From Paramagnetospirillum kuznetsovii (GTDB lineage: Bacteria > Pseudomonadota > Alphaproteobacteria > Rhodospirillales > Magnetospirillaceae), in assembly GCF_003284725.1 (NCBI RefSeq), contig NZ_PGTO01000008.1, positions 1-64,000 of the forward strand: DNA of 64,000 nt, written 5' to 3'. Below are positions 30,931 to 55,954 of this stretch, piece by piece (position 1 is the stretch's first letter; each line of letters starts with the position of its first letter). The position numbers were made by a program, and so were the translations under genes. The notes under the pieces were generated by a model. The model searched no databases and was not told the origin of the DNA. It saw only the letters and a list, made by a program, of their open reading frames with translations.

Positions 30931-30947
30931 TGTCGTGTTGCACGACA
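30931..30947. repeat. Island palindrome copy 1
   Basis: TGTCGTGTTGCACGACA, one mismatch to TGTCGTGT-N-ACACGACA; just after the integrase stop. Confidence 0.85.
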
Positions 30948-31166: not shown

Positions 31167-31242
31167 CGGGCAATTATATGCAGTGCAGCAAAATTTTGGA
31201 ACTGCAATCGGGCTAGGCATTGCCACGGTCGCTGATTACCAG

Positions 31243-31259
31243 TGTCGTGTGACACGACA
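31243..31259. repeat. Island palindrome copy 2
   Basis: TGTCGTGTGACACGACA, perfect 8-1-8 inverted repeat with central G; intergenic. Confidence 0.92.
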
Positions 31260-31824: not shown

Positions 31825-31923
31825 TTCCAATTCTCCAAATAGGAACGTACTGCGAACACGGTATGGAGACTTGAAGCGGATCACAACGAAAAGACAGGCG
31901 TAGGCTTAACCTACAGAAAGCCG

Positions 31924-31940
31924 CGTCGGGTTACACGACA
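31924..31940. repeat. Island palindrome copy 3 (diverged)
   Basis: CGTCGGGTTACACGACA; right arm intact, left arm with two changes. Upstream of the gene at 31387-31824. Confidence 0.6.
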
Positions 31941-32533: not shown

Positions 32534-33415
32534 ATGACTAATCTTAATACAAGCATTAACTCTACCTGTAAGTCCCTCATCTCTGAGCGCGAAAACTGGG
32601 AGAAAATTGAACTCGCTGCCAGCAATACAAAGCTCTACTCTATTCTTAGCCGTTGCTTTGAGGTTTACAAGCAGCTGAAGCAAAATCAGTTCTTGGTCGA
32701 AGAGCTTGACAAGATGCTGACTGCTAAGGGCATCAAGTTCACCGCTGCGGTGCATCCTGCGAACAAGTTGATCAAGCTGATCTTTGGGGACAATGACCGT
32801 CGTCGCGTCAGCGCCTACGCCACGGTCATGAAGGCCGCGCATGAAAATGCCAGCAAGGCGACTGCGGATTTCGCTGCGTGGGTGAAGCGCGAGGGAGGCA
32901 TTGAAGCCATTCGGACCGGCAATGCGACGACTGGCGGTGGGTCTTCGGGCACAACCAGCGATCCCGAGGCGTTCAACAAGGCCGCAGCAAGGCTTGGCAA
33001 GGAAGCTGCCATCGCCAGCATCGCCCCCAGTTCCAAGTTTCCCGAGGAAACTGGATACGTGATGGTCCTTGCGCGCATCGCTCCTGATCGCAGCCTGAGC
33101 GTCGTCAAGTTTATCGGCAAGGTAAACGATGAACGCGCCAAGAGCATTGTCATCAAGGCTGCCGCTGCGGAAGACGCGGATTGTAAGGCCAGCGCCTCCA
33201 AGGCGATCAAAACCATGAAGAAGAACATTGCTACCAAAAAGAGGGCGGATGAAAAAACTGCGAAGGAGGCTAAGGCCGCCCTCCACGCGAAAATGGACAA
33301 GAGGAATTTTGCTGCTGAGTCCCGGATTGACGAAAAACTGCCCGAGCCGTCGGACAAGGCTTTCGTCATTTACAAGGTCAACGCCGATGACGATTCGGTC
33401 AATGAAGCGGCCTAA
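32534..33415 (+). CDS. Hypothetical protein, first gene before clamp loader
   Basis: 293-residue soluble protein, no family recognised. AAGGAG precedes the ATG. Residues 1-120 are helical. A Gly/Ser/Thr linker (about 135-145) leads to a second part with ETGYVMVLARIAPDRSLSVV and FIGKVND, then a Lys/Ala-rich helix (about 215-265). The end DKAFVIYKVNADDD is acidic. It lies 70 bases before the AAA+ clamp-loader-like gene in the same direction and may act with it. Confidence 0.65.
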   Translation: MTNLNTSINSTCKSLISERENWEKIELAASNTKLYSILSRCFEVYKQLKQNQFLVEELDKMLTAKGIKFTAAVHPANKLIKLIFGDNDRRRVSAYATVMKAAHENASKATADFAAWVKREGGIEAIRTGNATTGGGSSGTTSDPEAFNKAAARLGKEAAIASIAPSSKFPEETGYVMVLARIAPDRSLSVVKFIGKVNDERAKSIVIKAAAAEDADCKASASKAIKTMKKNIATKKRADEKTAKEAKAALHAKMDKRNFAAESRIDEKLPEPSDKAFVIYKVNADDDSVNEAA

Positions 33416-33485: not shown

Positions 33486-34262
33486 ATGGTTTCCTTTACT
33501 ATCAAATACAAGCCGAACACCCTTGCTGATGTCGTGTATCCCGATAGCCAGACGGAAGACGACATCCGCGCATACGAAAACGCTGGTCGGTTCAATCACA
33601 TAGTTCTTTACGGCACATACGGCACTGGCAAGACCACCATCGCAAAGTTAATGCCAAAAGCGGTCGTGGCAGATGTCGATTGGCAAAATGAAGTGCGCTT
33701 CATCAATGGCAGCATGATAAGAAGCGTTATTGATATTCGACCAGTAACAAGCTTCTTGAGCCTTTCTTCTTGGAACTCTTTGGGCTGCAAATTCGTTATC
33801 ATCGATGAAGCTGAGCAGCTTACAAGACCAGCTCAGCTTGCACTAAAAGGAGTTCTTGACGACTTTGCACGCAACGCGATGTTTATATTCACCACCAATT
33901 ACATAAACAACTTGGATGGAGGAATTCAAGGTCGAACCCAGATTTTCCAATTTGATCCTCCTCCAGCTATGCGCCTTGTACCCTTCGTGAAACGTGTTTT
34001 GAAAAGCGAAGGACTTGGAATGAGCGATCCGCAAATTAACCAGTACATTGCGAAATATGGCAGCAGTATCAGAGGATTGCTCATGCAACTTGAGACGGAT
34101 GTGATCACCTCCAGGAGAGCCAATATTCAGCCTGTTCCACCTCCCAAAGTGTCGCGTAACACGACGGTCAGTCAGCCTTCGCCGACCAGTGCAGCACAGA
34201 GCAAATCGGTGTCGTGCGACACGATAGCCATCCAGACGCCGCCCAGTTCACAAGCGGCATAA
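33486..34262 (+). CDS. AAA+ clamp-loader-like ATPase (RFC / T4 gp44 type)
   Basis: 258 residues. IKYKPNTLADVVYPDSQ resembles the RFC box I region; Walker A is YGTYGTGKTTIAK (about 43-52) and Walker B is KFVIIDEAEQL. Sensor 1 is FIFTTNY, and GRTQIFQFDPP replaces the SRC motif. The order VVADVDWQNEVRFINGS is like phage T4 gp44. Such proteins load sliding clamps for a polymerase; no clamp or polymerase gene is seen here. The C-terminal 35 residues contain two copies of the island palindrome. AGGAG precedes the ATG. Confidence 0.75.
   Translation: MVSFTIKYKPNTLADVVYPDSQTEDDIRAYENAGRFNHIVLYGTYGTGKTTIAKLMPKAVVADVDWQNEVRFINGSMIRSVIDIRPVTSFLSLSSWNSLGCKFVIIDEAEQLTRPAQLALKGVLDDFARNAMFIFTTNYINNLDGGIQGRTQIFQFDPPPAMRLVPFVKRVLKSEGLGMSDPQINQYIAKYGSSIRGLLMQLETDVITSRRANIQPVPPPKVSRNTTVSQPSPTSAAQSKSVSCDTIAIQTPPSSQAA
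34150..34166. repeat. Island palindrome copy 4, inside CDS
   Basis: TGTCGCGTAACACGACG, two changes; encodes VSRNTT in the tail of the clamp-loader-like protein. Confidence 0.75.
34210..34226. repeat. Island palindrome copy 5, inside CDS
   Basis: TGTCGTGCGACACGATA, two changes; encodes VSCDTI in the tail of the clamp-loader-like protein, 60 bases after copy 4. Confidence 0.7.
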
Positions 34263-34339: not shown

Positions 34340-34663
34340 ATGGAAACCAGCACGGCCACCATCAGCGTCCTACAGATCACGGCCATCCATGCAGGCCGCG
34401 TGCTGGCACTGGCCGATGTGGAATTGATCCTCGATGGCGTGTCCATCGTCATCCACGGCGTTCAGGTTCGCGCTGACGCTGCCAAGACGGAAATCACCCT
34501 GCCAAATTACCGAGCGCCAGACGGTTCTTGGCGAACCGCTGTCACGCTGCCCGACGAAATTCAGGGGCCGATGGGAGACGCTGTGATTGCAGCGGCCATG
34601 GAGATTGGGATTTTGAAGGAAAGCCGACTGTCGTGTAACACGACAGACCAAATGCGGAACTGA
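34340..34663 (+). CDS. SpoVG-like small protein
   Basis: 107-residue protein METSTATISVLQITAIHAGR... with LPNYRAPDGSWRTAVTLPDE and PMGDAVIAAAMEIG. The run of strands followed by P-x-x-R-x-x-DG-x-x-R and a C-terminal helix resembles SpoVG-family RNA/DNA-binding proteins. The resemblance is by eye only. Palindrome copy 6 forms part of the C-terminal codons (LSCNTTDQMRN). Confidence 0.55.
   Translation: METSTATISVLQITAIHAGRVLALADVELILDGVSIVIHGVQVRADAAKTEITLPNYRAPDGSWRTAVTLPDEIQGPMGDAVIAAAMEIGILKESRLSCNTTDQMRN
34629..34645. repeat. Island palindrome copy 6, at a gene 3' end
   Basis: TGTCGTGTAACACGACA, perfect; encodes SCNTT six codons before the stop of the SpoVG-like gene. Confidence 0.92.
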
Positions 34664-38799: not shown

Positions 38800-39366
38800 A
38801 TGAAGCAGGCAAGGGTACCAACTGAAACAGAACTCAAGCGCGTCCTCACTGTGGTCGCCCAATCTCGTTTTTCCGCCCGCAACCGCATGGCGTTGATGCT
38901 GAGCTTTTACGCAGGGCTTCGTGTCGGAGAGATTGCTGCACTGAAGCTTGGCGACGTGATCGACGACGCACGTCACTTGCGCGATTGCATTTCACTGCGA
39001 GCGGCAATGACCAAGACCAACGAAGCGCGGACGATCTTCATCAATGGCAAGTTGAGAAAGGAAATTGAGCGCTACGTGTCGTGTTACACGACACTCGATC
39101 TCGCCGAGCCGCTTTTGATGACGCAGAAACGCACAGCGTTTTCGGCCAATACGCTGTGTCAGCTATTCGGTCAGATATACGACGAAGCTGGAATTGACGG
39201 CGCGACCAGTCACAGCGGTCGGCGCTGGTTCATAACGCGGCTGGCTCATTCGGGTGTGTCGGCCAAGGTCATCATGACACTGGCTGGTCATAAGCACATG
39301 AGCACCACGCAACGCTATATCGATGTGAACGACGAGATGATGCGGGCGGCGGTGGAGATTCTTTGA
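38800..39366 (+). CDS. Minimal tyrosine recombinase
   Basis: 188 residues, catalytic domain only; the N-terminal core-binding domain of XerC/D or phage integrases is missing. All catalytic positions are visible: Arg41 (AGLRVGEIA), Lys72, His138-x-x-Arg141 (SHSGRRW), His164 (LAGHK) and Tyr173 (TTQRYID). Palindrome copy 7 encodes residues 93-98 (VSCYTT) between strands. A GTG at 38797 is an alternative start. It is separate from the island integrase and may act at other sites in the island. Confidence 0.85.
   Translation: MKQARVPTETELKRVLTVVAQSRFSARNRMALMLSFYAGLRVGEIAALKLGDVIDDARHLRDCISLRAAMTKTNEARTIFINGKLRKEIERYVSCYTTLDLAEPLLMTQKRTAFSANTLCQLFGQIYDEAGIDGATSHSGRRWFITRLAHSGVSAKVIMTLAGHKHMSTTQRYIDVNDEMMRAAVEIL
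39077..39093. repeat. Island palindrome copy 7, inside recombinase CDS
   Basis: TGTCGTGTTACACGACA, perfect; in the middle of the small recombinase gene, in the reading frame that gives SCYTT. Confidence 0.92.
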
Positions 39367-41559: not shown

Positions 41560-41775
41560 CTACGATTGAGTGGCCGTGGCCATGAGCTTGGTCAGATCGC
41601 CTTGCTTCTTCAGCATGGACGCTCTTGCGCTGCTAACCTGTTCGCGCTTCTTCTGAACGGAAGCCGCCTGCTTGAGCTTCTTGGCTTGTTCGGCCTTCGC
41701 ATCGGCCTGCTTCTTCAAATTATCCCCGATGGTGTTGGCCTTGATCTCCTCGGCCACAATCTCCCACATCCGCAT
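41560..41775 (-). CDS. Small helical protein, partly duplicated at 43328
   Basis: 71 residues: MRMWEIVAEEIKANTIGDNL, then a Lys/Gln/Ala-rich coiled coil (QADAKAEQAKKLKQAASVQK). AGGAGA precedes the ATG. No family recognised. The first 16 residues and upstream region recur at 43397-43487 as a 91-bp direct repeat. Confidence 0.5.
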   Translation of the reverse strand: MRMWEIVAEEIKANTIGDNLKKQADAKAEQAKKLKQAASVQKKREQVSSARASMLKKQGDLTKLMATATQS

Positions 41776-41818
41776 CGGCGGTCTCCTGCTGACGGTTTCT
41801 CCGAGGGTATTTATGGGC
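41728..41818. repeat. 91-bp direct repeat, copy 1
   Basis: About 87 of 91 bases match 43397-43487. It contains the start of the gene at 41560-41775 and its ribosome site. The two copies flank the PocR kinase gene. Confidence 0.88.
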
Positions 41819-42089
41819 ATATCCAATTTGCCAAAATTCGAAACTCACCCCCCCCCTTGTCTGACTGTCGCGCCGTCACATCTTCCAGATTGGACGAATG
41901 TTTGCTATCCTGTCAGCATACACAATGCGACTGACAATATACCAAGACAGAAAATGTGGAATTGATTTAATAAGATTTGCCATAAAGCGGAACGCTCAAC
42001 ACGAAGAACTTAACTAGGCAAACTAATTAATCTTGTCCGCATCTATGGAACTAATGAAAATCTGAGGACAGCTTGGGGAAATTGATAGC

Positions 42090-43331: not shown

Positions 43332-43444
43332 TGGCTTTTTATATTTTTGTTTTTTGTTTTATGCAGTGCTTGTTGGAAAAGGCGTTTTCGTTTTTTGATG
43401 GTGTTGGCCTTGATCTCCTCGGCCACAATCTCCCACATCCGCAT
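43328..43444 (-). pseudogene. Truncated copy of the 41560 gene
   Basis: The start MRMWEIVAEEIKANTI matches the protein of 41560-41775, then diverges into KKRKRLFQQALHK and ends at the 3' end of the PocR kinase gene. It looks like a 5' fragment left by a duplication or insertion. Confidence 0.6.
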
Positions 43445-43487
43445 CGGCGTTCTCCTGCTGTCGGCTTCTCCGACGGTATTTATGGGC
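43397..43487. repeat. 91-bp direct repeat, copy 2
   Basis: Counterpart of 41728-41818. It lies between the PocR kinase stop and palindrome copy 8. Confidence 0.88.
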
Positions 43488-43564
43488 GCGGACAACTTGT
43501 CGGGTTTCCGGACAAGTGGGCAACGTGGGCGCGGGCCATGCTTAGGGTAAACTACAGGCACGAG

Positions 43565-43581
43565 TGTCGTGTAACACGACA
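43565..43581. repeat. Island palindrome copy 8
   Basis: TGTCGTGTAACACGACA, perfect; intergenic in the 43445-43840 gap, where I see no other signal. Confidence 0.92.
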
Positions 43582-43840: not shown

Positions 43841-45001
43841 ATGACAACAATACAATGGATCAGACATATCAACCGACTTTGCGACCTGCGCGGTGATGCG
43901 CGGTTTGACGACATTTTCCTCGATTGCATCGCGGCCATGCACCGAACAGGCCGCACCAGCGTCAACCAGGGCAATTGGCTGGTCACGCAGTTGGACATGC
44001 ACCATGGCATTCAGCTCACTCATATTGGGCCAATCCACCTGACAAAGCCGCAACACCGTATCGTCAAAGAAGCTGTGGCCGCAGCAGTCTCGGTGGCCGA
44101 CAAGACCAGACGGGCCGTGCTTTCCGCAAAGTTTCCACACGTTTTCCGCACTGTTTCCACATCGTTCCCGCAGGTTTTCCGCACAAAAGGCGCTATTTCT
44201 TTAGCTGATCCAACGACTTATGACGCTGCTATTGCTAGACTATTACTAAAACTAATCGATGCGCCGTTGGCGTTCTCATGGCCTTCGGCCACGACCGATG
44301 TCCTTTCAGCCCAAGTCGATGGCGGCTCACCTGTTGCTCGCCACCAGATCACCGAGGCGGCTTTGCCCATCGCGGTGAATACCAATGTGATTGACGATGC
44401 GGCTTCGCCACTTCGTGGCTTCGCCGCCAAATCGGACGAGCCATTTCATCAAGGGAAAGACCCAAAGACAGCCAATGCCAATTCGCCCATGGGAGCAAAG
44501 GCCAATCGGCCAATGGGTCAGGTAAAGGCCAATTCCACAAAGGCCAATATATCGCTGTGGGTCGATGGCGGCTCACGCAGCCATGTGCGTGGCCGACTGG
44601 AAGTCGGAGATAAAGAGTTCCGCCTGAACTTCCGCAGCCCGCTACGTGCCGAGGAATTGATCTATGTGGGGCAGGGCCAGGACGCGGAAGCGCGGCAGTG
44701 GTACGAGGAAATCAGTGCCCAGTTGATCCCCCATTTGCAGTCCAAGGCGGAAGCTGCCAGCGGTCGGCTGAGCAGCAACCACATCGCCAGCGCCGTCCAT
44801 GATTTCCACGACAGTCGTTGCGAGCAAAGTGGCCTAATCGGTGGGATCGCGTTCTTGGGCTATAGCGGCGATGTACCTTCACGGTGCGTCGTGCAGATCA
44901 ACGACACGATTTGGCAGTTCGAGCTACAGGCGACCCGCAGCCCGAATTCCAAAGCGCCTCAGTTCAAGGCAACCGCCGAGCCGTCATCCTTAGCAGCGTA
45001 G
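43841..45001 (+). CDS. Hypothetical protein with PMG/AN repeats
   Basis: 386 residues, no family recognised. GGAGA precedes the ATG at 43841. The N-terminal part (1-100) is helical (IQWIRHINRLCDLRGDARFD). The middle (about 130-250) looks disordered with repeats (ANSPMGAKANRPMGQVKANS; VDGGS twice). The C-terminal part (250-370) is ordered with alternating strands. Its 3' end overlaps a small opposite-strand gene. Confidence 0.6.
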   Translation: MTTIQWIRHINRLCDLRGDARFDDIFLDCIAAMHRTGRTSVNQGNWLVTQLDMHHGIQLTHIGPIHLTKPQHRIVKEAVAAAVSVADKTRRAVLSAKFPHVFRTVSTSFPQVFRTKGAISLADPTTYDAAIARLLLKLIDAPLAFSWPSATTDVLSAQVDGGSPVARHQITEAALPIAVNTNVIDDAASPLRGFAAKSDEPFHQGKDPKTANANSPMGAKANRPMGQVKANSTKANISLWVDGGSRSHVRGRLEVGDKEFRLNFRSPLRAEELIYVGQGQDAEARQWYEEISAQLIPHLQSKAEAASGRLSSNHIASAVHDFHDSRCEQSGLIGGIAFLGYSGDVPSRCVVQINDTIWQFELQATRSPNSKAPQFKATAEPSSLAA

Positions 45002-45201: not shown

Positions 45202-45480
45202 ATGCTGCTGGAAGTCATCTATAGGGAATTGCGCGATATGTGGATGGTTGAGAGCCAGTATGAGTTTTCTCAGTTTTGGCTTGGCCAATCGCGAAGCTAT
45301 ATGTCCTGTGCTAAGGCGCGACAGCGGCCACCGTCATTGCTGGTGCTGATGCGGTTGTCGCAACGGCTCACTTCCATCTCGGCCAAATATGCCGCTGTAG
45401 CGACGACCGAGATTGAGAGGGCAAACTGCAAGCGATTAGCCGCACTACACAATGCTGTTGAGCTTGAAATGAGATGTTAG
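45202..45480 (+). CDS. DUF6626-like small protein, intact family member
   Basis: 92 residues: MLLEVIYRELRDMWMVESQY, then FSQFWLGQSRSYMSCAKAR and PPSLLVLMRLSQRL. GGAGG precedes the ATG. The pattern 'EFS..WLG.S.SY.s.lka....PS...L..L' resembles an alphaproteobacterial family of short helix-turn-helix-like proteins (I believe DUF6626). Two truncated copies lie at 46066 and 49456 in the same island. Confidence 0.6.
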   Translation: MLLEVIYRELRDMWMVESQYEFSQFWLGQSRSYMSCAKARQRPPSLLVLMRLSQRLTSISAKYAAVATTEIERANCKRLAALHNAVELEMRC

Positions 45481-45489
45481 AGTAAAATG

Positions 45490-46011
45490 TTAATGAGTTT
45501 TCCAATAATCGAAAACACGCTGTCTCTCATCTTTCTGGAACTGATCTGCATCTTGAAAAACGTGTCCATAATCTTTAGCTAGTTGTGTAAACCCCTTTCC
45601 ACACATTCCAGTTGCCTCGTCAACAATTATTGATGAAAGCATTGGACGACTAGCGTCTTGTTCAAGCTGACACACAGGATCAAGGCGGCGCTGAAGGACA
45701 AAACGGACATTCGGCCACTTGCCAAATTTTTCTCCCAATTTCTTATATGTGATTGTCTCTCCTCCGCGGGCGCATTCTATCAAAATATCTCTAATTATTT
45801 TTGGCTCCATTCTCGACTTTGCGATAAGAACATCTGCGACAGCCTCAACAAGCCATTGCGATTGAGGCAGCTGCTTTTTTGCATTTTCAAGTTGGACTTT
45901 TAATCTGTCTTCTTCCATGTCTGAAAGTTTTTCAAGATATACATTTCTGTCTTTGGGTTCTTTATAATCCACCATCTTGCGACCCCATGCCTTGTGATGC
46001 TGATCGCTCAT
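45490..46011 (-). CDS. Hypothetical protein
   Basis: 173 residues, AT-rich. N-terminal coiled coil (NVYLEKLSDMEEDRLKVQLE), then RDILIECARGGETITYKKLG and EKFGKWPNVRFVLQRRLDPV. The end contains MCGKGFTQLAKDYGHVFQDA. The middle recalls a small wHTH-like domain in restriction-associated hypothetical proteins, but no firm call is possible. Confidence 0.6.
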   Translation of the reverse strand: MSDQHHKAWGRKMVDYKEPKDRNVYLEKLSDMEEDRLKVQLENAKKQLPQSQWLVEAVADVLIAKSRMEPKIIRDILIECARGGETITYKKLGEKFGKWPNVRFVLQRRLDPVCQLEQDASRPMLSSIIVDEATGMCGKGFTQLAKDYGHVFQDADQFQKDERQRVFDYWKTH

Positions 46012-46048: not shown

Positions 46049-46065
46049 CGTCGTGTAACACGATA
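46049..46065. repeat. Island palindrome copy 9, at a truncation point
   Basis: CGTCGTGTAACACGATA, two changes. Homology to the DUF6626-like gene begins at the very next base (46066). Confidence 0.8.
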
Positions 46066-46266
46066 AGCTATATGTCCTGTGCCAAGGCGCGACAGCGGCC
46101 ACCGTCATTGCTGGTGCTGATGCGGCTGTCGCAGCGGCTTGCATCCATGACGCCCAAATACGCCGCCGTGGCGACGCCCGAGATGGAGCGGACCAACTGC
46201 TGTAGGTTGGCCGTTTTGCGTGATCAGGTCGGAACTGAAATAGGTCAAGTTTCTACGTCGGCCTGA
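46066..46266 (+). pseudogene. 5'-truncated DUF6626-like copy
   Basis: From 46066 the sequence matches 45295 onward (SYMSCAKARQRPPSLLVLMR, then LSQRL). The first 31 codons of the intact gene are missing and are replaced by palindrome copy 9. The C terminus is longer than in the intact gene (VLRDQVGTEIGQVSTSA). An ATG at 45994 reads through the palindrome into it, so a chimeric protein could still be made. Confidence 0.7.
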
Positions 46267-46510
46267 GCGACAGATGTTGGGAGCGATAGGGCCGTGCATG
46301 ACCCGATCCTGCCCTTTGTCTCTGAACACGCCCTCGCTTGCTGATAGACTTGTCGCTGGATAGAGTGCGCTTGGGAGACGAATGGAATTGGCCCGTTTCA
46401 ATATTATTACTCTTGTCTCCTGCCATGTCGTCGGCGCAGAGGCTCATCGCCGCCACCGCAGCCAACACGACTGGTGCGCTATAGGTCGCAGCTAAAATTG
46501 CAAAAGCCAT
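46253..46510 (-). CDS. Small exported or membrane hypothetical protein
   Basis: 85 residues. MAFAILAATYSAPVVLAAVA, then AMSLCADD reads as a signal peptide or membrane anchor, followed by a basic, low-complexity tail. AAGG precedes the start. It is divergent from the PAS kinase gene at 46549. Weak support. Confidence 0.35.
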   Translation of the reverse strand: MAFAILAATYSAPVVLAAVAAMSLCADDMAGDKSNNIETGQFHSSPKRTLSSDKSISKRGRVQRQRAGSGHARPYRSQHLSLRPT

Positions 46511-46548
46511 AACCGCCTTTTAGATGAGTACATTCAGGAGATATCAAA

Positions 46549-48486
46549 ATGATGCAGCATGATATTCCTGTTAAAAATACGCTTTTAATAATTTTTACAT
46601 TCATATCGATCGGTATTTCTTTAATTTTTCTACAGCATATTCGAGACAACACATTAACTGCAATACGCGTCTATATAATGGCTGAGGGATTATGGGCCAA
46701 AGCGCAGAAGGACGCGATGCATAGCCTTGAACGCTATGCTAAGTTTCACAATGAAGATGACTACAATACTTATCAGCGTTTAATTCGAATCCCACTCGGC
46801 GACCTAGAGGCGAGAGTCGAATTGCAAAAATCAGATCCAGATCTGAGCATTGCTCGTGAATGGTTTATTAAAGGAGGCAACGATCCAGATGATATAGAAT
46901 ATATGATAGATATTTTTCGTAACTTTCAGAACATTTCGTTTATGACTAATGCAATAAAATACTGGACGGAGGCCGATCAACTTATCAATGAATTTAATGA
47001 TGAGGCAATCGAGCTACACAATCTCATATCATATTGGAAAATTAACGACGACATCATCACTGAAAAGCTTACACAGCTGGACATAATTAATAACAAACTA
47101 ACTGAAAAAGAGGTTTTATTTTCTAAAACACTAGCAATTACAGCAAGATTTCTTGATAGGATTTCTCTTTACGCCTCATATGTTATATCTACAATACTTA
47201 TTATATCTGGCATAGTGGCATCAAGGCTAGTCATCACCCACGTCGTCCGATCGAAAGAGGTCGAAAGACAGGTTGAATTTTTCAAAGCTCAAGCATTGGC
47301 CTCAGAACGTATTCGAGAGGAAAGAGATAAAGCAGAGGCGGCCAATGCCGCCAATATCAACCTAGCGAAGTCCCTGTTACAAAGCGAAGAGCGCAGCCGC
47401 TTGCTGCTGCACAATGCCACCGACGCCATCCATATTGTTGATGCTGAGGGCAAGCTCATTGAAGTGAGCAACACCTTTTGTCGTATGCTAGGCTACGAGC
47501 GAACCGAGGTAATCGGCATGCATGTCACCCAGTGGGATGCGAATATTCGTGCCACAGAGGTCGGGGACATTATACGAGAGCTGACAAACTCCCGTGATAT
47601 TAAAACCTTCGAATCACGGTTTTTGCGGAAAGGCGGAGACCTCTTAGATGTGGAAATTGCGCTCAGCGCCATCGATCTTAATGGCCAGCTCATGATCCAC
47701 TGTTCGGCGCGCGACATCACCGAACGTAAACTGGCGGCAAATGCGATTAATCAGGCGAAGGAACAGGCGGAAATAGCCAGCCGGGCCAAATCGGAAATCC
47801 TGACCAATATGAGCCACGAACTGCGCACGCCATTGAACGCGGTGATCGGCTATTCCGAAACCCTACAGACCGGAATGTTCGGCCAACCGCCTACTCCAAA
47901 ATTCGCGGAATACATCAACGACATCCATGATGCCGGTCTGCACCTGCTTGCAGTCATCAACGACATACTCGATGTCTCGGCTATTGATGCTGGCAAGTTC
48001 GAATTGTATGAGGAGTCGGTTTGCATACGAGATGCGGTTGACGGGGCGCTACGGCTGATCAGTCCACGGGCGGAAAAGGGCAGAGTTGCTGTTTCCAGCG
48101 AGGTTCCGACCGACCTACCTCGTCTCCGAGCCGACGAGCGGAGATTGAAGCAGATCATTTTGAACCTGCTTGCCAATGCGGTGAAGTTTACGCCCAAGAA
48201 CGGCAGGGTGTGGATTTCAGCGCATCTGACCCCAAAAGGCCGGATGGAAATCGCCGTCGCCGACACTGGCATTGGTATGGATGCGGCCGACATCACTAAG
48301 GCGCTTTCCGTGTTCGGTCAGGTGAATTCTGGTATGGCCCGCAGCCACGATGGCTCCGGCCTTGGTCTGCCCTTGACTAAGGGCATGGTCGAACTGCATG
48401 GAGGAACGCTCGCCATCGCCAGCGAGAAGGGCATCGGCACCACAGTTACCGTGACCTTCCCCGCCGAGCGAGTAGAAGCGGCTTGA
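46549..48486 (+). CDS. PAS-domain membrane sensor histidine kinase
   Basis: 645 residues. A membrane helix at about 9-28, a periplasmic helical sensor (about 30-205) and a second helix (about 206-230) precede a coiled coil, a PAS domain (about 275-395; [20 protein letters not shown]) and the kinase: H-box [18 protein letters not shown] (about residue 423), N-box [16 protein letters not shown] and [18 protein letters not shown]. No regulator is adjacent. The first 780 bases are AT-rich while the rest is GC-rich, so the sensor and kinase halves probably have different origins. Confidence 0.9.
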
Positions 48487-48633
48487 TGGCGCCGAACGCA
48501 GAGGGATGTGCAATCAGGTGAGCGTCGACCTTGCAGCATTAAAGGTTTCCAATTTATTAACCGAAGGGATATGATCACTCTACTACTAACGCATAGAAGA
48601 CTGTGCTGCAATGCACCCAAGGGATGGTTTTCG

Positions 48634-48834
48634 ATGTGCGAGATTTTTGATCAGGCCCCGCCGCACATAAAGGCTGCAGTTCTGCCGATCTTGTCGGAGA
48701 TGCACACGGCCAACCTGATTGCTGCCTATGCCATCTTGGAAAACCAGCAGGGGACAGACCGTCGGCTTCTGCGAGAGATACGTCGGTGGGTAAAAGATAG
48801 CTGCCGCTATTGCGATATTTGCCAAGCTGCATAA
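48634..48834 (+). CDS. Small hypothetical protein
   Basis: 66 residues: MCEIFDQAPPHIKAAVLPIL, then SEMHTANLIAAYAILENQQG and a Cys pair at the end (CRYCDICQAA). The start is uncertain; the frame is open from 48508. No family recognised. Palindrome copy 10 follows the stop by 22 bases. Confidence 0.45.
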   Translation: MCEIFDQAPPHIKAAVLPILSEMHTANLIAAYAILENQQGTDRRLLREIRRWVKDSCRYCDICQAA

Positions 48835-48856
48835 GGCATTGAAGCGCAGGTTATGC

Positions 48857-48873
48857 TGTCGTGTTACACGACA
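48857..48873. repeat. Island palindrome copy 10
   Basis: TGTCGTGTTACACGACA, perfect; between the small gene at 48634 and the BLUF gene. Confidence 0.92.
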
Positions 48874-48981
48874 CCTGTCTTCGGCGCTCGCTGGGCGATG
48901 GCATATCGACCAGCAATATTGCATCACCATCATCGACAATTTATGATCATCGAGCATCATAAATTTTCCGCTGGATAACCG

Positions 48982-49440
48982 ATGGGCTCGCCAAATCCGA
49001 ATAATGAGCTTTATTGCATCATTTACAGCAGCACCGCCTGGAACGATATGCTGTCTGACGACATCCGTATGCTTGCAATTCGGTCTTCGGAAAACAATTT
49101 AGATAAAAACATTAGCGGCGTTCTTTTGTATCATGACAGAACATTTTTTCAGGTTCTTGAAGGACATGAAAATGACTTACATGTCTTGTATGACGCGATC
49201 CAACAGGACAAGCGCCACTATGGCGCATTTAAGCTTTATGAGGGATCGATCAAACGAAGAAATTTTTCAAATTGGGGAATGGCGCTTGCCGACATTGGCG
49301 CGTTTTCTCAGGACGACGCAGATCTATTCCGATCTCTTGTTGATGCAGGGCCGCAGCTTGGGGATCAATCGGCGATGACCTCGCGAATTGACCGTCTTAT
49401 AGCCTCATTCCGCAAGGCCGTTGGCGCTGAAGGTGACTGA
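48982..49440 (+). CDS. BLUF-domain blue-light sensor
   Basis: 152 residues, single BLUF domain plus a short C-terminal helix. Flavin-site residues are present: Tyr15 (CIIYSS), Asn39 (ENNLDKNISGVLLY), Gln57 (FFQVLEG) and the semi-conserved Trp98/Met100 (NWGMAL). BLUF proteins bind FAD and signal by protein contacts. No output domain is fused, so a partner is needed; the nearby kinases or the DUF6626-like protein are candidates by position only. Confidence 0.92.
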   Translation: MGSPNPNNELYCIIYSSTAWNDMLSDDIRMLAIRSSENNLDKNISGVLLYHDRTFFQVLEGHENDLHVLYDAIQQDKRHYGAFKLYEGSIKRRNFSNWGMALADIGAFSQDDADLFRSLVDAGPQLGDQSAMTSRIDRLIASFRKAVGAEGD

Positions 49441-49444
49441 GTTT

Positions 49445-49455
49445 TGTCGTGTAAC
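49445..49455. repeat. Island palindrome copy 11, half site
   Basis: TGTCGTGTAAC, left arm plus centre only, five bases after the BLUF stop. The right arm is replaced by the truncated DUF6626-like fragment. Confidence 0.7.
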
Positions 49456-49602
49456 CTCGCCTCGCTGAGCGTCAACGAGGCCAAATACCCCGCTGTCGCG
49501 ACGACCGAGATGGAGAAGGCCAATTGCCGCAGGCTGGCCGTTTTGCGTGAGCAGACGCTATGTGAAATCGACAGCGCCACAAGCATGCAAGACTATTTTT
49601 GA
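49456..49602 (+). pseudogene. Second 5'-truncated DUF6626-like copy
   Basis: Reads LASLSVNEAKYPAVATTEME, then KANCRRLAVLREQTL; this is homologous to the C-terminal third of the 45202 protein and to the copy at 46066. It begins directly at the half palindrome and has no start codon of its own. It converges with the hemerythrin gene. Confidence 0.7.
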
Positions 49603-50369
49603 GAGATGTTCCCCGCAAGGTCAGCTTGGTCATCGTTAATAATGTGCTGTCGCAGCCAGTGATATATAAACTCTTCAACTTTTTTAAGTATATCCGAGTG
49701 ATCTCCATCCCACATATCGTTAAGCGCTACGAGTGCGTGCAAATGAGACCGGCGATGTGAAAGTAAATCTGCTCCAATATGACCAATATGAAGCTCTTCA
49801 TCATCAAAATGCTTTTTAATGTGGTCAATTATTCTTGCATAAACAAACTGTGCCAGCTTCCAATTTTCAGCACGAACATATTCGCCAAGCACTTTTGCCA
49901 TTGAGAATAAATTTTTGTGCTGACTGTCAATCCATTCAATGCCGACCGATAGCGTGTCATCCCAGCAGTAAGATTCTGGGATGTTATGCGCTATTCCACT
50001 ATAATCACAGTCATCAACAATTTCATGATTATACAGACAATCCTCAATTTCATTTACGATTGAAAATTTTGTCGATGTTGATGTTACGAGCTTGAGCGCC
50101 TCAATAGAGGTTGATATTGAATTTATGATTTCACTATGTTTTTCAGCGTGCTCCTTGTATTTACTATAGCTCGCGTCTTTGAGGGCGGTTTCTTCCGCCG
50201 AGAAGTGCGTTGCAAGCGCCTCCTTGAATTCGATGCAAGACGTTATGAATTCCTCATCACTCCGTCCTTCTCTAAGTGTTGTGACGATTTTCTGGACCAA
50301 ATCCATCAGAAGCAGATGCTGCGCATCCATTGCTGCGTGCCCAATTGCTCTTAGGACTTTCGGAGACAT
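49593..50369 (-). CDS. Double hemerythrin-domain protein
   Basis: 258 residues. Two hemerythrin-like four-helix domains: about 10-95 (MDAQHLLLMDLVQK, ALATHFSAEETALK, YKEHAEKHSEI) and about 130-250 (VGIEWIDSQHKNLFSMAKVL, HIKKHFDDEELH, RRSHLHALVAL, YHWLRQHI). His/Glu ligands for a di-iron site are visible in both; the second is more canonical. Such proteins bind oxygen and can serve as O2 carriers or sensors. TGGAG precedes the ATG at 50369. Confidence 0.88.
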   Translation of the reverse strand: MSPKVLRAIGHAAMDAQHLLLMDLVQKIVTTLREGRSDEEFITSCIEFKEALATHFSAEETALKDASYSKYKEHAEKHSEIINSISTSIEALKLVTSTSTKFSIVNEIEDCLYNHEIVDDCDYSGIAHNIPESYCWDDTLSVGIEWIDSQHKNLFSMAKVLGEYVRAENWKLAQFVYARIIDHIKKHFDDEELHIGHIGADLLSHRRSHLHALVALNDMWDGDHSDILKKVEEFIYHWLRQHIINDDQADLAGNISQK

Positions 50370-50445
50370 TGTGCGCTCCAGGGAGGACTGTTGATGGAGG
50401 AGGAACAGCGCATAATAAGTCAGCATCAACGAAAGCCAAGAAACT

Positions 50446-50462
50446 TGTCGTGTAACACGACA
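50446..50462. repeat. Island palindrome copy 12
   Basis: TGTCGTGTAACACGACA, perfect; 77 bases upstream of the hemerythrin gene and the last copy before attR. Confidence 0.92.
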
Positions 50463-50696
50463 ACCGACCTGCCGCCTGGGCCGAACCATCCAGTCAGATT
50501 TCCCATTATAGCATACGCTGCCAACCGCAGAACCGCCAAGAACAAACAGCGAACACGCTGCGCCGCAGCGAGCCGCGTTGGGCCTAACAGGATGAAAACA
50601 TTGAGAAATACCAAGAAAAATTAGCAGTTTTGTCAGCAGTTTGATTCTTGGAGAAAATAAGCTCTAATATACAACGTATTACAGCTTCACTTGCAA
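50463..50696. other. Right end of the island, non-coding
   Basis: About 230 bases without a convincing gene. TTAGCAG at 50621-50627, with a related GTCAGCAG at 50633-50640, may be integrase arm sites. The region near attR is AT-rich. Confidence 0.4.
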
Positions 50697-50737
50697 ACTC
50701 TGACTCCGCCAGTCTAGGTTCGAATCCTAGTCCCCCA
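50697..50737 (+). repeat. attR: 41-bp tRNA-Gln 3' copy
   Basis: Exact copy of 29288-29328, followed by A-CCA. It is the displaced 3' part of the original tRNA-Gln gene and marks the right edge of the island. Confidence 0.93.
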
Positions 50738-50763
50738 ACCATCACCTTGCGTTTCATGGAAAT

Positions 50764-51097: not shown

Positions 51098-52444
51098 ATG
51101 CGCGACGATGACCGCTGGCCAGGGTACCCCAGACTGCTGCCCGACGAGTCTGTATCTTCATGGTTTACCCGAACCGCCGCTGCCAACGGCCTGCGGCCGG
51201 GCGAGCTTTACCGCATCGTCCAGCCCGGTGGTGATCGCAATCCCCGCGATCTCGACCGCCACGCCGACGACTGGCTGCTGGATCTGCTGGCGGGCAAGAC
51301 TGGACTCGCGGCGGAAGACCTGAAACACGCCACCTTCCGCCGCTGGTCCGGGCGTCTGTTCGAATACGACGACGGCCTCAACAAGCTGGCCTGGGCGCCG
51401 CCAGCCGGGCGCGAGGGCGGTCGGCGCTGCTTCGGCCAGCAGGTCTGCCCCTGGTGCTTGCGGGTGGATACGCAGCCGTATTTGCGCCTCAACTGGCGGC
51501 TCTCCTTCTTCACGGTCTGCCCGATCCACGGACGCCTGCTGCTGGACCGTTGTCCGACCTGCGCCGAGCCGTTCAGCATCCTGCGCCAGGACGGGCGGGG
51601 TACCATCTGCTGCCCGGGCTGCGGCGCTGATCTCCGCGACTTCACCGGGGATGAACCTGCAGTCGATGCCGTCCCCGTGCAGCGCGACCTGCTGGAGCTG
51701 ATCCGGGAGGGATGGCGAGACCTCGGCGAATACGGGCCGGTCTATTCCTTCGCGGTGTTCGAGATGCTGGCCCAGCTGCTCCGTCTGCTGGCGGGCGGCA
51801 AGCACGCCCATGCCTTGAGGCTTTGGTTGGCTGAACACGACCTCAGTCTGGCGGTTCGGCCGGAAAGCCTTCCCCGTGCCCGGGATGGTGCCCTGCTGAC
51901 TCCGCGCGCTCGCGGTGCGCTGGTCGCCATGGCCCATTGGCTGCTGGCTGATTGGCCGCATCGCTTCGTCGAGGCCGCCAAGGCGGTGGGTATGACCAGC
52001 ACCGACCTGCGCAAGCGTCCGGTGGGCGAGTATCCCTATGCCTACGCCCATGCCGTGGACTGGCACCTGAAGGAGCCGCACAAGGGCGACGCCGCAGACG
52101 AGATCGCGGTGGCGGCCCAGGTGCTTCACGACCACGGCCAGACGGCCAGCCATCGGAACCTGATGGCCCTGTGCGGAACCAAACTGGGCTCCATGGGCGG
52201 AGTGGCCGAACCCGTGGCCTCCGGTCTGCCCTGGGGCAAGGGGCGTTACTGGAAGCTGGATGGTGTTTCCCCCGAGGTGAAGGCTGCCGCCCGCCGGGCT
52301 GCGCACCGTGCCGGCGAGGATGTGGGGCCATGGTTGGACGCCCTGCTTCGCCGGACGCTTGGACTTGGCGCCATCAAAACACCTTTTAATGGTCATGATC
52401 CCGACACAATCACGCTCGACGGTAATGTTGGTTGTGAAGAGTGA
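51098..52444 (+). CDS. tniQ: TniQ/TnsD-family target-site protein
   Basis: 448 residues. The N-terminal TniQ domain opens with LLPDESVSSWFTRTAAANGL. Zinc-binding Cys/His groups follow: CPWCLR, FFTVCPIHGRLLLDRCPTC and CCPGCGADL (about 115-190). The C-terminal half is helical with DNA-binding character (TSTDLRKRPVGEYPYAYAHA). TniQ/TnsD chooses the insertion site, often a fixed chromosomal sequence. GGAGG precedes the ATG at 51098. The element lies 22 bp past tRNA-Gln, so this tRNA may be its target (inference). Confidence 0.9.
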   Translation: MRDDDRWPGYPRLLPDESVSSWFTRTAAANGLRPGELYRIVQPGGDRNPRDLDRHADDWLLDLLAGKTGLAAEDLKHATFRRWSGRLFEYDDGLNKLAWAPPAGREGGRRCFGQQVCPWCLRVDTQPYLRLNWRLSFFTVCPIHGRLLLDRCPTCAEPFSILRQDGRGTICCPGCGADLRDFTGDEPAVDAVPVQRDLLELIREGWRDLGEYGPVYSFAVFEMLAQLLRLLAGGKHAHALRLWLAEHDLSLAVRPESLPRARDGALLTPRARGALVAMAHWLLADWPHRFVEAAKAVGMTSTDLRKRPVGEYPYAYAHAVDWHLKEPHKGDAADEIAVAAQVLHDHGQTASHRNLMALCGTKLGSMGGVAEPVASGLPWGKGRYWKLDGVSPEVKAAARRAAHRAGEDVGPWLDALLRRTLGLGAIKTPFNGHDPDTITLDGNVGCEE

Positions 52445-52457
52445 TGGGGGACACTCG

Positions 52458-53117
52458 ATGCCCGTGCGCAAGATCGGCCTTTGCTATCGCAGTGTGAGTG
52501 GGCGGGTGCCCATGGGACAGGGGCGGCCCGGCGTCCAGGTGGAATCGACCCTGGAACGGGATTTCGCGCTGCTCTGCCGCTTCGATTCGGCCGTCGTTGG
52601 CATCGAGGAACAGCCGGTGCGGATAGAATACGATGATGCCGACGGCCGCGCCCGATCCTACGTGCCCGACTTCCTGGTGACCTATCGTGGCGGTCGGCCG
52701 GTACCGCGCCTGGTCGAGATCAAATACTCCACCGATCCCATGCTGGTGTCGGGGCAATTGGACGGCCGCTTTGCCGCCGCCCGCACCTATGCCCGCCGAC
52801 AGGGCTGGCGCTTCCAGGTGGTGACCGAGCGGGAAATCCGCACGCCCCGGCTGGAGAATGCCACCTTCCTGCTGCCGTTCCGAGGCCGCCCCGTTGCAGC
52901 CGGTCTGCGGGAGGCACTGCGCTCGGTCCTGCGGAAAGGTGGTCCGAACAGCGTCGCATCGCTCGCCGACGAAGTTGCGGCGGCGCTGGGCTTGAGCCGG
53001 CCGGAGGTTCTGCCCAGCCTTTGGACCTTGGTGGCAGAGTTCGAGGTGACAGCCGACCTGGATTGCCCCCTGACCATGAGCGCCCTCGTTACACCGGCAA
53101 AGGAGAAGCGGCCATGA
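52458..53117 (+). CDS. tnsA: TnsA-type transposon endonuclease
   Basis: 219 residues. The restriction-like fold shows its catalytic set: Glu in VESTLERDFALL, Asp in YVPDFLV and Glu-x-Lys in RLVEIKYS. The C-terminal part (about 130-215) is the winged-helix region that contacts TnsC. TnsA cuts the 5' ends so that the element moves by cut-and-paste together with TnsB. It starts 13 bases after tniQ and overlaps tnsB (ATGA). Confidence 0.9.
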   Translation: MPVRKIGLCYRSVSGRVPMGQGRPGVQVESTLERDFALLCRFDSAVVGIEEQPVRIEYDDADGRARSYVPDFLVTYRGGRPVPRLVEIKYSTDPMLVSGQLDGRFAAARTYARRQGWRFQVVTEREIRTPRLENATFLLPFRGRPVAAGLREALRSVLRKGGPNSVASLADEVAAALGLSRPEVLPSLWTLVAEFEVTADLDCPLTMSALVTPAKEKRP

Positions 53118-55027
53118 GCAATGGATTCAGCTTTCAGCCTGGCGCCTCGGTTCTCTGGCGTGGCAAGCGCTGCACCATCGTCGAGGCGGTGACGGCCTCC
53201 TCGGTCCTGCTCGACGTCGGGGATGGTCTGGACAAGGAGGTGGTGCCCGTCTCCAAGCTGCGATCGCTCAAGGATGCCGAACCCGCTCAGGCCGATCGTA
53301 GCTTGGACGGGTTGGCTCCCGAAGACCTGGTCGAGGCCAAGCGGCGCTTCGCCATCATCAAGCCACTGGTGCGCTGCGAGCGACGACGAGAAAAGGACGT
53401 CCTTGGGATTGCCGAGGCCAATGGAATCTGCCGAACGACGATCTATGACTGGATCAGGCTGTACGAAGGGCGGCGTCGGGTCAGCGATCTCGCGCCGAGA
53501 CGGAAGGGGCGCAAGATGCCCAAGCGTCTGGCACCCGAGGTCGAGGCGATCATCGCCAGCGTCATCGACGAAAAGTACCTCTCCACGCAGAAGGCCAGCG
53601 GCGAGGAGGTCATCCTGGAGGTCGAGCGCCGCTGCCGAGCCGCGAGGCAGGAGACCAAGCCGTGTGCCGGCTCTATCCGGGCCCGGCTGCGCGCCGTCGA
53701 TCCCAAGCTGAAAGTGCTGCGGCGCGAGGGTAAGAAGGCCGCCCACGACAAGTTCGGGGCGGTGAAGGGCAACTTCCCCGGTGCCGATGTGCCACTGGCC
53801 GTCGTGCAGATCGACCACACCCTGCTCGACATCATGGTGCTCGACGAGGAGATGCGGCTGCCCATCGGTCGTCCATGGCTGACTCTGGCTATCGATGTCT
53901 TCAGTCGCATGGTGGTGGGCTATCACCTCTCGCTCGACAATCCCGGCGCCTTCGCCGTCGGTCTCTGCCTGTGCCATGGAATGCTGGACAAGGCGGCGGA
54001 ACTGGAGCGATTGGGCGTCAAGGGTGAGTGGCCGGTCTGGGGCAAGCCCCGCATGATCCACTCCGACAACGGCAAGGATTTCCGCAGCTACCTGATCCAG
54101 GACACCCTGGACGAACACGATATCCGCTACGAATTTCGCCCGCCGAAGACGCCCCATTACGGCGGTCACATCGAGCGCCTGGCCGGGACCTTGGCGAGGA
54201 AAGTCCACGCCCTTCCCGGTGCCACCTTCTCCAACCCCAAGCAGCGCGGTGAGTACAAGTCCGAAGCCAAGGCCCAGATGACGCTGCGGGACTTGCGCCC
54301 CTGGCTGCTCAACCTCATCGTCGGCGTCTACCACAACAAGGTCCATAGCGGGATCGGCTGCCCGCCCTTGGCCCGGTGGAATGACGGTATCATGGGCACC
54401 GACCGGTTCCGGGGCATTGGCCTGCCCGAACCCATCCCCAATCCTCGGCGGCTGCGCCTGGATTTCCTGCCCTTCATCGAGCGCACGGTGCAGCCGGAAG
54501 GCATCGTTTGGGACAAGATTTGGTACCGCGATCCGCTGCTGTCCCAGTGGGTCCGGGCTGACGAAGGCCGCCGGCGGCGGAAGTTCAAGGTCCGCCGCGA
54601 CCCAACCGACATCTCCAAGCTCTACTTTCTCGATCCGAGGCTTAGCGACTATGTCGAGATTCCCTATCGCGACATCGGGCGGCCATCGATCTCGCTGTGG
54701 GAGTACCGGGCGGTCGACTTGGCTGCGCCGCCAGGGCAAAGCTGCCGAGAACGAGCAGGCGATCTTCGACGCTTACGAGGACATGCACCGTATCACCACC
54801 GAGGCGGCCCGCCAAACCAAGCGTGCCCGCCGCGAACAGGCCAAGAAACGAGAGCTCGGCAAGCACCGCGCGGAACTGACCCTGGACCCGCCGCGCCCGC
54901 CATCGGAATCGCCGACAAAGCCCAAGGCCACGCGGCGCCGCGACGGTCATCTGGCCCTGGTGGTCGACAACCAGGCCGCCGATCCGCCGAAGCCCAAGCC
55001 GACATCCAACGACTTCGACTTCGATGA
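53114..55027 (+). CDS. tnsB: TnsB-type DDE transposase, frameshifted near its end
   Basis: 637 residues as read. HTH part about 60-200; integrase core about 230-440 with Asp in VVQIDHTLLD, Asp in MIHSDNGKDF and Glu in HYGGHIERLAG. The C-terminal beta-barrel region runs to SLWEYRAV near 54715. From there this frame is Arg/Pro-rich and unlike TnsB, while the overlapping frame ending at 55061 continues sensibly. One extra base near 54710-54722 therefore breaks the gene, or shifting is programmed. The catalytic core is intact; the TnsC-contacting tail is altered. Confidence 0.9.
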   Translation: MSNGFSFQPGASVLWRGKRCTIVEAVTASSVLLDVGDGLDKEVVPVSKLRSLKDAEPAQADRSLDGLAPEDLVEAKRRFAIIKPLVRCERRREKDVLGIAEANGICRTTIYDWIRLYEGRRRVSDLAPRRKGRKMPKRLAPEVEAIIASVIDEKYLSTQKASGEEVILEVERRCRAARQETKPCAGSIRARLRAVDPKLKVLRREGKKAAHDKFGAVKGNFPGADVPLAVVQIDHTLLDIMVLDEEMRLPIGRPWLTLAIDVFSRMVVGYHLSLDNPGAFAVGLCLCHGMLDKAAELERLGVKGEWPVWGKPRMIHSDNGKDFRSYLIQDTLDEHDIRYEFRPPKTPHYGGHIERLAGTLARKVHALPGATFSNPKQRGEYKSEAKAQMTLRDLRPWLLNLIVGVYHNKVHSGIGCPPLARWNDGIMGTDRFRGIGLPEPIPNPRRLRLDFLPFIERTVQPEGIVWDKIWYRDPLLSQWVRADEGRRRRKFKVRRDPTDISKLYFLDPRLSDYVEIPYRDIGRPSISLWEYRAVDLAAPPGQSCRERAGDLRRLRGHAPYHHRGGPPNQACPPRTGQETRARQAPRGTDPGPAAPAIGIADKAQGHAAPRRSSGPGGRQPGRRSAEAQADIQRLRLR

Positions 55028-55061
55028 TGCCGAGATCAAGATGGGGGTAGAAGAATGGTGA
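54717..55061 (+). pseudogene. Displaced C-terminal part of TnsB
   Basis: In the +1-shifted frame the sequence reads WLRRQGKAAENEQAIFDAYE, then MHRITTEAARQTKRARREQAK, and ends DDAEIKMGVEEW with a stop that overlaps the tnsC start (ATGGTGA). This is the expected TnsB tail and coupling. It shows where the reading frame was lost. Confidence 0.8.
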
Positions 55062-55954
55062 CGCCCGATCTGTTTGCGCTCAATCCGGCGCCCATGCTGC
55101 CGTTGGATTTCCCCCAGGATGAGCTTGAGGGGCGCATCCGCCGCATTCGCAGCCCGCGCTACGTCGCATACGAGGCGGGTGAAGCGATCCTCGGCCGTCT
55201 GGCCTGGCTCTATGACCACCCCAAGGTGGTCCGGCCGCCGTGCAGCCTGATCTATAGCGACACCAACAACGGCAAGACGGCCCTGGCGCAGAAGTTCGTC
55301 CGCGACCACAGTCCGGCCGAGGACAGTCCCGACTTCGGCAAGCGCCCGGTGGTCTACGCCCATGCCCCGCCCTATGCCGATATCAGCGGCCTTTACGATG
55401 CGATCCTGCGCTCGCTGGGCGCCCCCTATCGGTCAACGGCCCGGCCCCAGGCCAAGTGGGACCAGTTGCTCCAGCTACTGGCTGCCGTCGGCACCCGGGT
55501 GCTGATCCTCGACGAGGTGAGCAACTTCCTGATCGGCAAGGTGGATCAGCGCTCCATGGTGCTGAACAGCCTGAAGAGCCTCAGCAACGAGCTGAAGATC
55601 CCCGTGGTGGCCATGGGCACCCAGGATGCGGTGCGTGTCTTCCAGACCGACCAACAATTGGGTAACCGCTTCGAGCCGATCGGTATCCCGCGCTGGAGCG
55701 TGAGCCGGGAATACGCACTGTTCGTGGCGCGGTATGCCCAGAGCCTGGAGCTGCGGCAGGAGAGCGACTTCCGCTCGAAGGAGTTGATCGGCCGTATCCA
55801 TGCCATGTCAGAGGGGCTGACCGGCGAGACCTGCAAGCTGCTGGCCCTGGCCGCAGAGACTGCGATTCACACGGGACGGGAGGTCATCGACATGGGGACG
55901 CTGGATCAAGTGCCGTGGGTGATGCCTAGTGAGAGGAGGCGGACGGCTAGGTGA
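55055..55954 (+). CDS. tnsC: TnsC/TniB-type AAA+ transposition regulator
   Basis: 299 residues. Walker A region reads SLIYSDTNNGKTALAQKF, where the first Gly of the usual GxxxxGKT is replaced, as in several TniB proteins. Walker B is RVLILDEVSNFL, and VVAMGTQDAVRVF is sensor-like. TnsC forms an ATP-dependent filament on target DNA that links TniQ to TnsA/TnsB. The start overlaps the displaced TnsB tail. It converges with the cargo operon, leaving 13 bases between stops. Confidence 0.9.
   Translation: MVTPDLFALNPAPMLPLDFPQDELEGRIRRIRSPRYVAYEAGEAILGRLAWLYDHPKVVRPPCSLIYSDTNNGKTALAQKFVRDHSPAEDSPDFGKRPVVYAHAPPYADISGLYDAILRSLGAPYRSTARPQAKWDQLLQLLAAVGTRVLILDEVSNFLIGKVDQRSMVLNSLKSLSNELKIPVVAMGTQDAVRVFQTDQQLGNRFEPIGIPRWSVSREYALFVARYAQSLELRQESDFRSKELIGRIHAMSEGLTGETCKLLALAAETAIHTGREVIDMGTLDQVPWVMPSERRRTAR

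Follow-up and report, generated by a model that had tools for sequence, protein, structure and literature searches.

The window analysed here is a stretch of 64,000 nt of Paramagnetospirillum kuznetsovii (contig NZ_PGTO01000008.1, positions 1-64,000; assembly GCF_003284725.1; genome of 4.4 Mb). It contains an island of 21.4 kb (29288-50741), which is integrated at tRNA-Gln and carries dispersed copies of a 17-bp palindrome, TGTCGTGTWACACGACA, referred to as P hereafter. The island is delimited by two direct copies, 45 bp each, of the 3′ end of tRNA-Gln (29288-29332 and 50697-50741; 97.8% identical): a tyrosine integrase gene adjoins the tRNA, and the repeat of the tRNA end is found at the far side. 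The island belongs to a family of tRNA-integrating elements. Its features are as follows.

29288-29332, + strand: attL, the 3′ 45 bp of tRNA-Gln (tRNA at 29259-29332); direct repeat
29488-30915, + strand: tyrosine integrase (INT), 475 amino acids (aa); PF00589, homologues in sister elements
30931-30947: P with 1 mismatch, 15 bp past the INT stop; junction at its edge
30957-31166, - strand: 69-codon open reading frame (ORF) in a 295-bp segment between two P; segment absent, single P in some relatives
31243-31259: P; homology to several relatives begins at 31241-31243
31387-31824, - strand: B145, a 145-aa DUF6641 protein found widely in these elements
31899-31915: type D palindrome variant, 2 mismatches, adjoining P; pattern match
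31924-31940: P with 2 mismatches; pattern match
32534-33415, + strand: c14, 293 aa, conserved, with no assigned function; homologues in sister elements
33486-34262, + strand: AAA clamp-loader-like protein; P variants lie in frame at 34150 and 34210, with a weaker match at 33530
34340-34663, + strand: protein of 107 aa with at most weak similarity to SpoVG (E 0.059, which does not reach the cut-off); profile match
34629-34645: P, 3′-terminal in the gene of the 107-aa protein; alignments with several relatives stop at 34645-34646
38800-39366, + strand: c2rec, a tyrosine recombinase of 188 aa that consists of the catalytic domain only; all 39 aligned homologues have R, K, H, R, H, Y
39077-39093: P within c2rec, codons V-S-C-Y-T-T; exact P there in 14 of 39 c2rec
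41560-41826, - strand: c7, 88-aa backbone gene; homologues in sister elements
43397-43487, - strand: second copy of the c7 5′ end, 91 bp, 96% identical; repeat search
43565-43581: P between the divergent backbone genes c7 and c5; pattern match
43841-45001, + strand: c5, 386 aa, backbone, with 11-bp repeats at 44121-44184; homologues in sister elements
45202-45480, + strand: DUF6626 copy 1, 92 aa, all-helical model with a helix pair like that of a helix-turn-helix (HTH); PF20331, E 9e-15
45490-46011, - strand: cargo ORF, 173 aa, no Pfam match
46049-46065: P with 2 mismatches; pattern match
46066-46266, + strand: DUF6626 copy 2, lacking codons 1-31, directly after P; nucleotide homology
46549-48486, + strand: cargo, PAS sensor histidine kinase; domain match
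48857-48873: P; pattern match
48982-49440, + strand: cargo, BLUF protein; domain match
49445-49455: half palindrome, 11 of 11 letters; pattern match
49479-49602, + strand: DUF6626 copy 3, 3′ part only; nucleotide homology from about 23 bp past the half palindrome
49593-50489, - strand: cargo, protein with a hemerythrin domain; L044 has a homologue of 95% identity
50446-50462: last P; right-end blocks common to L034, L043 and L112 begin here
50697-50741, + strand: attR, repeat of the tRNA-Gln 3′ end; direct repeat

The palindrome and the element family

P is symmetric except at its centre, and its flanking positions are without common conservation. In the window, 12 matches with up to 3 mismatches were found, as compared with 0.08 expected. 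When the whole genome was searched with up to 2 mismatches, all of the 10 sites found were inside the island, and the reversed control pattern gave no match. The relatives used for comparison were taken from one taxonomic family and from stretches elsewhere that contain exact P; the loci compared are given L-numbers, and the genomes G-numbers. The weakest of the 12 matches (33530; 3 mismatches), located within the clamp-loader gene, may be a degenerate P site, because L033, L050 and L109 have 2-mismatch versions at this place. Among P variants with up to 4 mismatches, two symmetric double changes were found and 126 of the 325 variant positions are paired, which is not enough to draw on. A further palindrome-like word, TGTCGGGTTTCCGGACA, occurs at 43498-43514 near the P at 43565, and a similar word occupies the c2rec P place in L135.

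Exact P was found in 11 of the 55 genomes of the taxonomic family and in 9 of the 17 genomes of the genus (own genome included), where it is mostly clustered; within the genus, the palindrome occurs in records named Magnetospirillum, Paramagnetospirillum and, in one case, Terasakiella. The elements share a backbone, which is clearest in the longer loci, the gene complement being incomplete in some. Its first half consists of INT, P, B145 (DUF6641), P, c14, the clamp-loader-like AAA gene and the 107-aa protein gene with its 3′ P; the second half consists of cargo, c2rec with its internal P, c7, P, c5, DUF6626, cargo and P. Among the cargo genes of the window are those for histidine kinases, response regulators, a hemerythrin and a BLUF protein.

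Beyond the Magnetospirillum-like stretches, exact P was present in 38 stretches, titled mostly as beta- and alphaproteobacteria, several of which share one contig. At least one element gene was found in 23 of them (the recombinase only in L085) and none in the remaining 15; the latter, including Dyadobacter and Streptococcus, probably carry P by chance. On contig C18 of G047, three family integrases occur at 15-19 kb spacing (L108, L109 and L110), and these are probably three elements in tandem. Small sister elements also exist (L031, L036-L039, L111 and L144), in which DUF6626 and B145 are located around palindrome arrays of mixed types, the integrase being seen where the stretch is long enough. 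The arrays 3′ of DUF6626 read A, B, A, C in 5 of the 8 aligned small elements and A, B in the other 3. In the stretches examined, c2rec appeared only as weak cross-hits inside INT, and L038 has a true c2rec further away. Literature searches, including those on Magnetospirillum islands, DUF6626 and DUF6641, gave no description of this element family, and a search with palindrome fragments gave no paper on such a repeat, as judged by titles. B145 had no match in the phage records and one distant match, from Azospirillum, in the plasmids.

Junctions between sister elements

The alignments of the window to its relatives begin or stop at the edges of P (31241-31243, 34149, 34645-34646 and 50446-50447), and one starts at 46066. 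The junctions were examined by comparing 17 related loci all against all, some of them from one genome, P being counted with 2 mismatches at most and irrespective of its centre base; one site, L034:283, lies near a contig start. Among 982 unique synteny junctions, 95 were located within 4 bp of a P edge, whereas random sites in conserved blocks had 17.6 ± 4.4 junctions at their edges (maximum 34 in 400 trials) and uniform random sites had 12.0 ± 3.8. In 73 of the 95 cases, P lies within the aligned block. As alignments tend to end at conserved words, runs of 15-22 bp with exact matches served as control words. A junction was found at the edges of 69 among 113 P sites, as compared with 295 among 2176 control words. 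A clear difference is seen both for the intergenic sites (50 of 68 for P, 74%; 109 of 502 for the control words, 22%) and for the coding sites (19 of 45 and 186 of 1674, respectively). Other palindromes also have junctions at their edges: 6 of the 7 type B and C sites and 14 of the 23 type D sites. These therefore argue against a recombinase specific for P.

Another feature is that two P sites that enclose a segment in one element correspond to a single P in another. Eleven such pairings were found, at about four distinct places, and the clearest is the place between INT and B145: a single P is present in L032, L033, L045, L049 and L050, and two P sites enclosing a segment are present in the window (where they are separated by 295 bp), L044, L047, L108 and L109. 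The INT stop codon is located within about two bases of P in 8 of the 10 loci compared, and at 15 bp in the window and L044. L047 retains, ahead of its second P, 13 bp that match the INT end of L033 exactly.

These data must be weighed against the possibility that no joins occur in P, cargo entering the spacers freely and P being merely the last conserved piece, at which alignments end. Alignment ends do favour conserved words, as the 22% of intergenic control words with junctions illustrates; some breaks lie 10 bp beyond P (10 bp past P are shared in L047, for example), and only 3 of 16 truncated genes end near P. However, the intergenic junction rate of P far exceeds that of the control words, the paired sites with a segment between them require two breakpoints at P, and the INT genes of the window and L047 are only 30% identical, yet P comes after each of them. 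We consider this possibility somewhat unlikely.

The DUF6626 copies and truncated genes

The sequence-only reading recognized three DUF6626-like copies in the island. The gene at 45202, regarded as intact, was verified to be so (45202-45480; PF20331, E 9e-15). Copy 2 had been placed from the base following a palindrome, and the alignment agrees: the nucleotide homology starts at exactly 46066, in codon 32 (AGC TAT), and the preceding P (46049-46065) itself carries 2 mismatches. In the intact DUF6626 genes of the 14 relatives aligned, no P was found inside.

Copy 3, on the other hand, does not start directly after the half palindrome, as had been claimed. The half palindrome occupies 49445-49455, and the clear nucleotide homology starts at about 49479; its role as an exact breakpoint was rejected, the homology starting about 23 bp further on. 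In tblastn, copy 3 was aligned from its first residue, including the residues encoded by the half palindrome, and TTGTCGCAACGG in copy 1 corresponds to TTGTCGTGTAAC in copy 3. Since the protein alignment runs through it, the half palindrome of copy 3 could be altered gene sequence. Of the two independent truncations proposed at one motif, therefore, that of copy 2 is exact and that of copy 3 is ambiguous. Copy 3 is probably a second rearrangement scar, not exactly at P.

The fragments may alternatively reflect the ordinary decay of duplicated or tandem elements, their nearness to P being coincidental. This would fit the offset of copy 3 from the half palindrome and the 85% identity of copies 1 and 2 over 149 nt, which means that they are not a fresh duplication. 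It would also fit the 3′ ends of DUF6626, which vary among elements: the last residues of copy 1 differ from the C-terminus LRDQVG.EI.. common to copy 2, L126, L141 and L145. Nevertheless, copy 2 begins at the exact base after P, and junctions in general prefer P, so that such a coincidence is very unlikely.

As for backbone genes in general, truncated ends in the loci examined were located within 30 bp of P in 3 of 16 cases, as compared with 0.66 expected (maximum 4 in 2000 trials), and two of the three originate from a single metagenome bin. Taken by themselves, the truncations are insufficient to establish joins at P. The earlier proposal that DNA joins occur at the palindrome thus stands on the concentration of junctions at P edges and on the paired sites enclosing a segment, and not on the truncations from which it was drawn.

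Palindromes within genes, probable binding sites and proposed recombination seams

P is found not only at the edges of modules. Sister elements retain it at matching places of the backbone, and these include the interior of two genes. Exact P occurs at the same codons in 14 of the 39 aligned c2rec, whose proteins are 73-96% identical to that of the window; it has 1 mismatch in L093 (Hyphomicrobiales) and 2 in L141, and the other aligned sequences lack it. Among the 14, P varies at the centre column only and other 17-column windows have a mean of 8.0 and a minimum of 3 variable columns, a comparison conditional on genes chosen for carrying P (L042, L043 and L044, cut at shifted starts, were aligned on P, and L044 has a stop near the start). 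In the 3′ part of the clamp-loader-like gene, tandem units of 60-63 bp with one P each are present in 3 or 4 copies (L033, 11114-11240; L050, 11453-11642; L109, 16564-16684). A second palindrome, D (GTAGGTTWAACCTAC), was present in 7 of the 12 genomes searched, and in 18 of its 23 sites the spacing to a P (up to 2 mismatches) is exactly 9 bp; of the remaining sites, one is at 9 bp from a 3-mismatch P and four lack such pairing. Many of the D-P pairs lie between divergent genes. Sister elements carry other repeated palindromes, AACATACNNNNNGTATGTT and AACTTACNNNNNGTAAGTT, and the right-end block that adjoins P in the window and L043 joins a type B palindrome in L126.

The recurrence of P inside c2rec and the clamp-loader gene led us to reject P as a pure cassette boundary. 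The cassette-like array of the sequence-only reading is likewise too strong in view of this recurrence, the conserved gene order, the junctions at the edges of the type B/C and D palindromes and the unclear status of copy 3. Most likely, P constitutes dispersed protein-binding sites doubling as recombination seams. P would be bound by an element-encoded dimeric DNA-binding protein, in a layout resembling that of dispersed phage operators. Since many module boundaries in related elements carry this same 17-bp sequence, recombination between P copies is proposed, which would insert, delete and exchange the segments between them. DUF6626 copy 2 would then be a rearrangement scar, an illegitimate joint at a P edge, for which deletion between tandem elements may be a possible route. 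We give this explanation, taken as a whole, about even chances of being correct.

Several points weigh against it. Besides the selection of genes in the c2rec comparison, the elements in which junctions were counted are related, so the counts do not represent independent events; alignment ends may favour conserved words, a bias that the controls reduce and do not remove; truncation of genes in itself shows only a weak connection with P; and the P site between the convergent INT and B145 genes is not in a promoter position. Moreover, among the candidates examined (DUF6626, B145 and c5), none was identified as a P binder. The DUF6626 model has five helices with a predicted local distance difference test (pLDDT) score of 95.8, and it gave no significant structural match (best E, 0.96 in the PDB and 0.21 in the viral set); its top PDB matches, none significant, are XRE-type HTH proteins. 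Type A elements have the same helix residues, SYMSCAKAR, as L126 and L145, and neither of the latter two contains a type A palindrome site at up to 2 mismatches. In the search of 29 genomes outside the group with exact P (genomes, not one per stretch), DUF6626 was found in 6, in 3 of them over the cut-off.

The three candidates were rejected as follows. DUF6626 was dropped as a P-specific binder, the same helix residues occurring without type A sites and the gene not being found in 23 of the 29 P genomes searched. B145 as the determinant was discarded because it is 92% identical in L126, which lacks a type A site, and its AlphaFold2 (AF2) model (pLDDT 84.2) had no significant PDB match. For c5, L126 gave no match, and the c5 place there is without an ORF longer than 112 aa.

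The closest precedent of P is found in the 17-bp palindromes of the Cluster O mycobacteriophages (Corndog and its kin). According to the part of PMC4351075 that deals with them, these phages carry more than 30 copies of a 17-bp dyad repeat, TGTTCGGNNNCCGAACA, about a third of which lie in coding regions and for which a function is not established there; places with a segment between two repeats in some phages and a single repeat in their relatives were read as the result of recombination between sites. P is similar in being a 17-bp dyad dispersed over intergenic and coding regions of one mobile genome, and in the segments between two P where relatives have a single P. It differs in sequence (TGTCGTGTWACACGACA, not TGTTCGGNNNCCGAACA), in number (about 11 sites versus more than 30), in that sister elements of the island have other palindromes, and in its fixed spacing to a second palindrome; in addition, the Cluster O phages, as described there, are not obviously temperate, whereas the island is a tRNA-integrated proteobacterial element. 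The Cluster A stoperators are, in the portions of PMC3029335 and PMC9283540 concerning them, 13-mers without symmetry, which follow the direction of transcription and to which a known repressor binds. P resembles these described sites in being dispersed and element-specific, related genomes carrying different site sequences; unlike them, it is symmetric and not oriented, and its binder is putative. The conserved boundary sequences of mosaic phages, as far as PMC3029335 treats them, are short shared words at module boundaries proposed as recombination guides. Unlike those, the same word P recurs at many boundaries and inside conserved genes.

In integron cassette arrays, segments are bounded by repeated sites and a tyrosine recombinase is present. 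The island likewise has P-bounded segments and a tyrosine recombinase; unlike an integron, it has backbone genes between the sites, c2rec is below the integron integrase cut-offs (NF040815, 78.4 bits with a cut-off of 220; TIGR02249, 31 with a cut-off of 265), and P does not correspond to attC, its conserved part being 17 bp. P might still be the core site of a dedicated site-specific recombination, in which c2rec moves the P-bounded segments as cassettes. The R-K-H-R-H-Y set is present in 39 of the 39 aligned c2rec homologues, c2rec accompanies P in many loci, and one of the segments found at the two-P and single-P places holds a single small ORF. However, P arrays occur with only weak c2rec cross-hits inside INT or with none in L031, L036, L037, L039, L111 and L144 (some on short contigs), the junctions at type B/C and D palindromes also speak against a c2rec-P system, the P inside c2rec was never among the listed junctions, and 17 bp is short for two recombinase arms and a spacer. 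This makes such a role of c2rec unlikely. A broader conjecture, which we regard as still more doubtful, is that widespread alpha- and betaproteobacterial integrative elements might edit themselves at 17-bp palindromes: a c2rec-type recombinase would join DNA there, the P-bounded segments would be mobile cassettes, and sister lineages with other palindromes would form groups compatible in recombination, the whole resembling an integron whose sites are minimal and symmetric.

Apart from P, three observations were made in and around the island. One is that about six 11-bp repeats (TTTCCRCAnnn), iteron-like, lie inside c5 at 44121-44184; judging from these, c5 could be a replication initiator with the origin inside its own gene. 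Another is that the c7 5′ end (41728-41818) is duplicated at 43397-43487, with a cargo gene for a PocR-domain histidine kinase between the two copies. The last is that a Tn7-like set of four genes (TniQ, TnsA, TnsB-like and TniB) occupies 51098-55954, about 360 bp past attR, and one full and one partial close copy of it occur beside a sister element in G038.

With P most likely serving both as binding sites and as recombination seams, the island offers, outside the phage records searched, an example, in integrative elements, of dispersed palindromes whose positions match module boundaries. The sister elements with differing palindromes make both the protein that would read the sites and the promotion of recombination directly testable.

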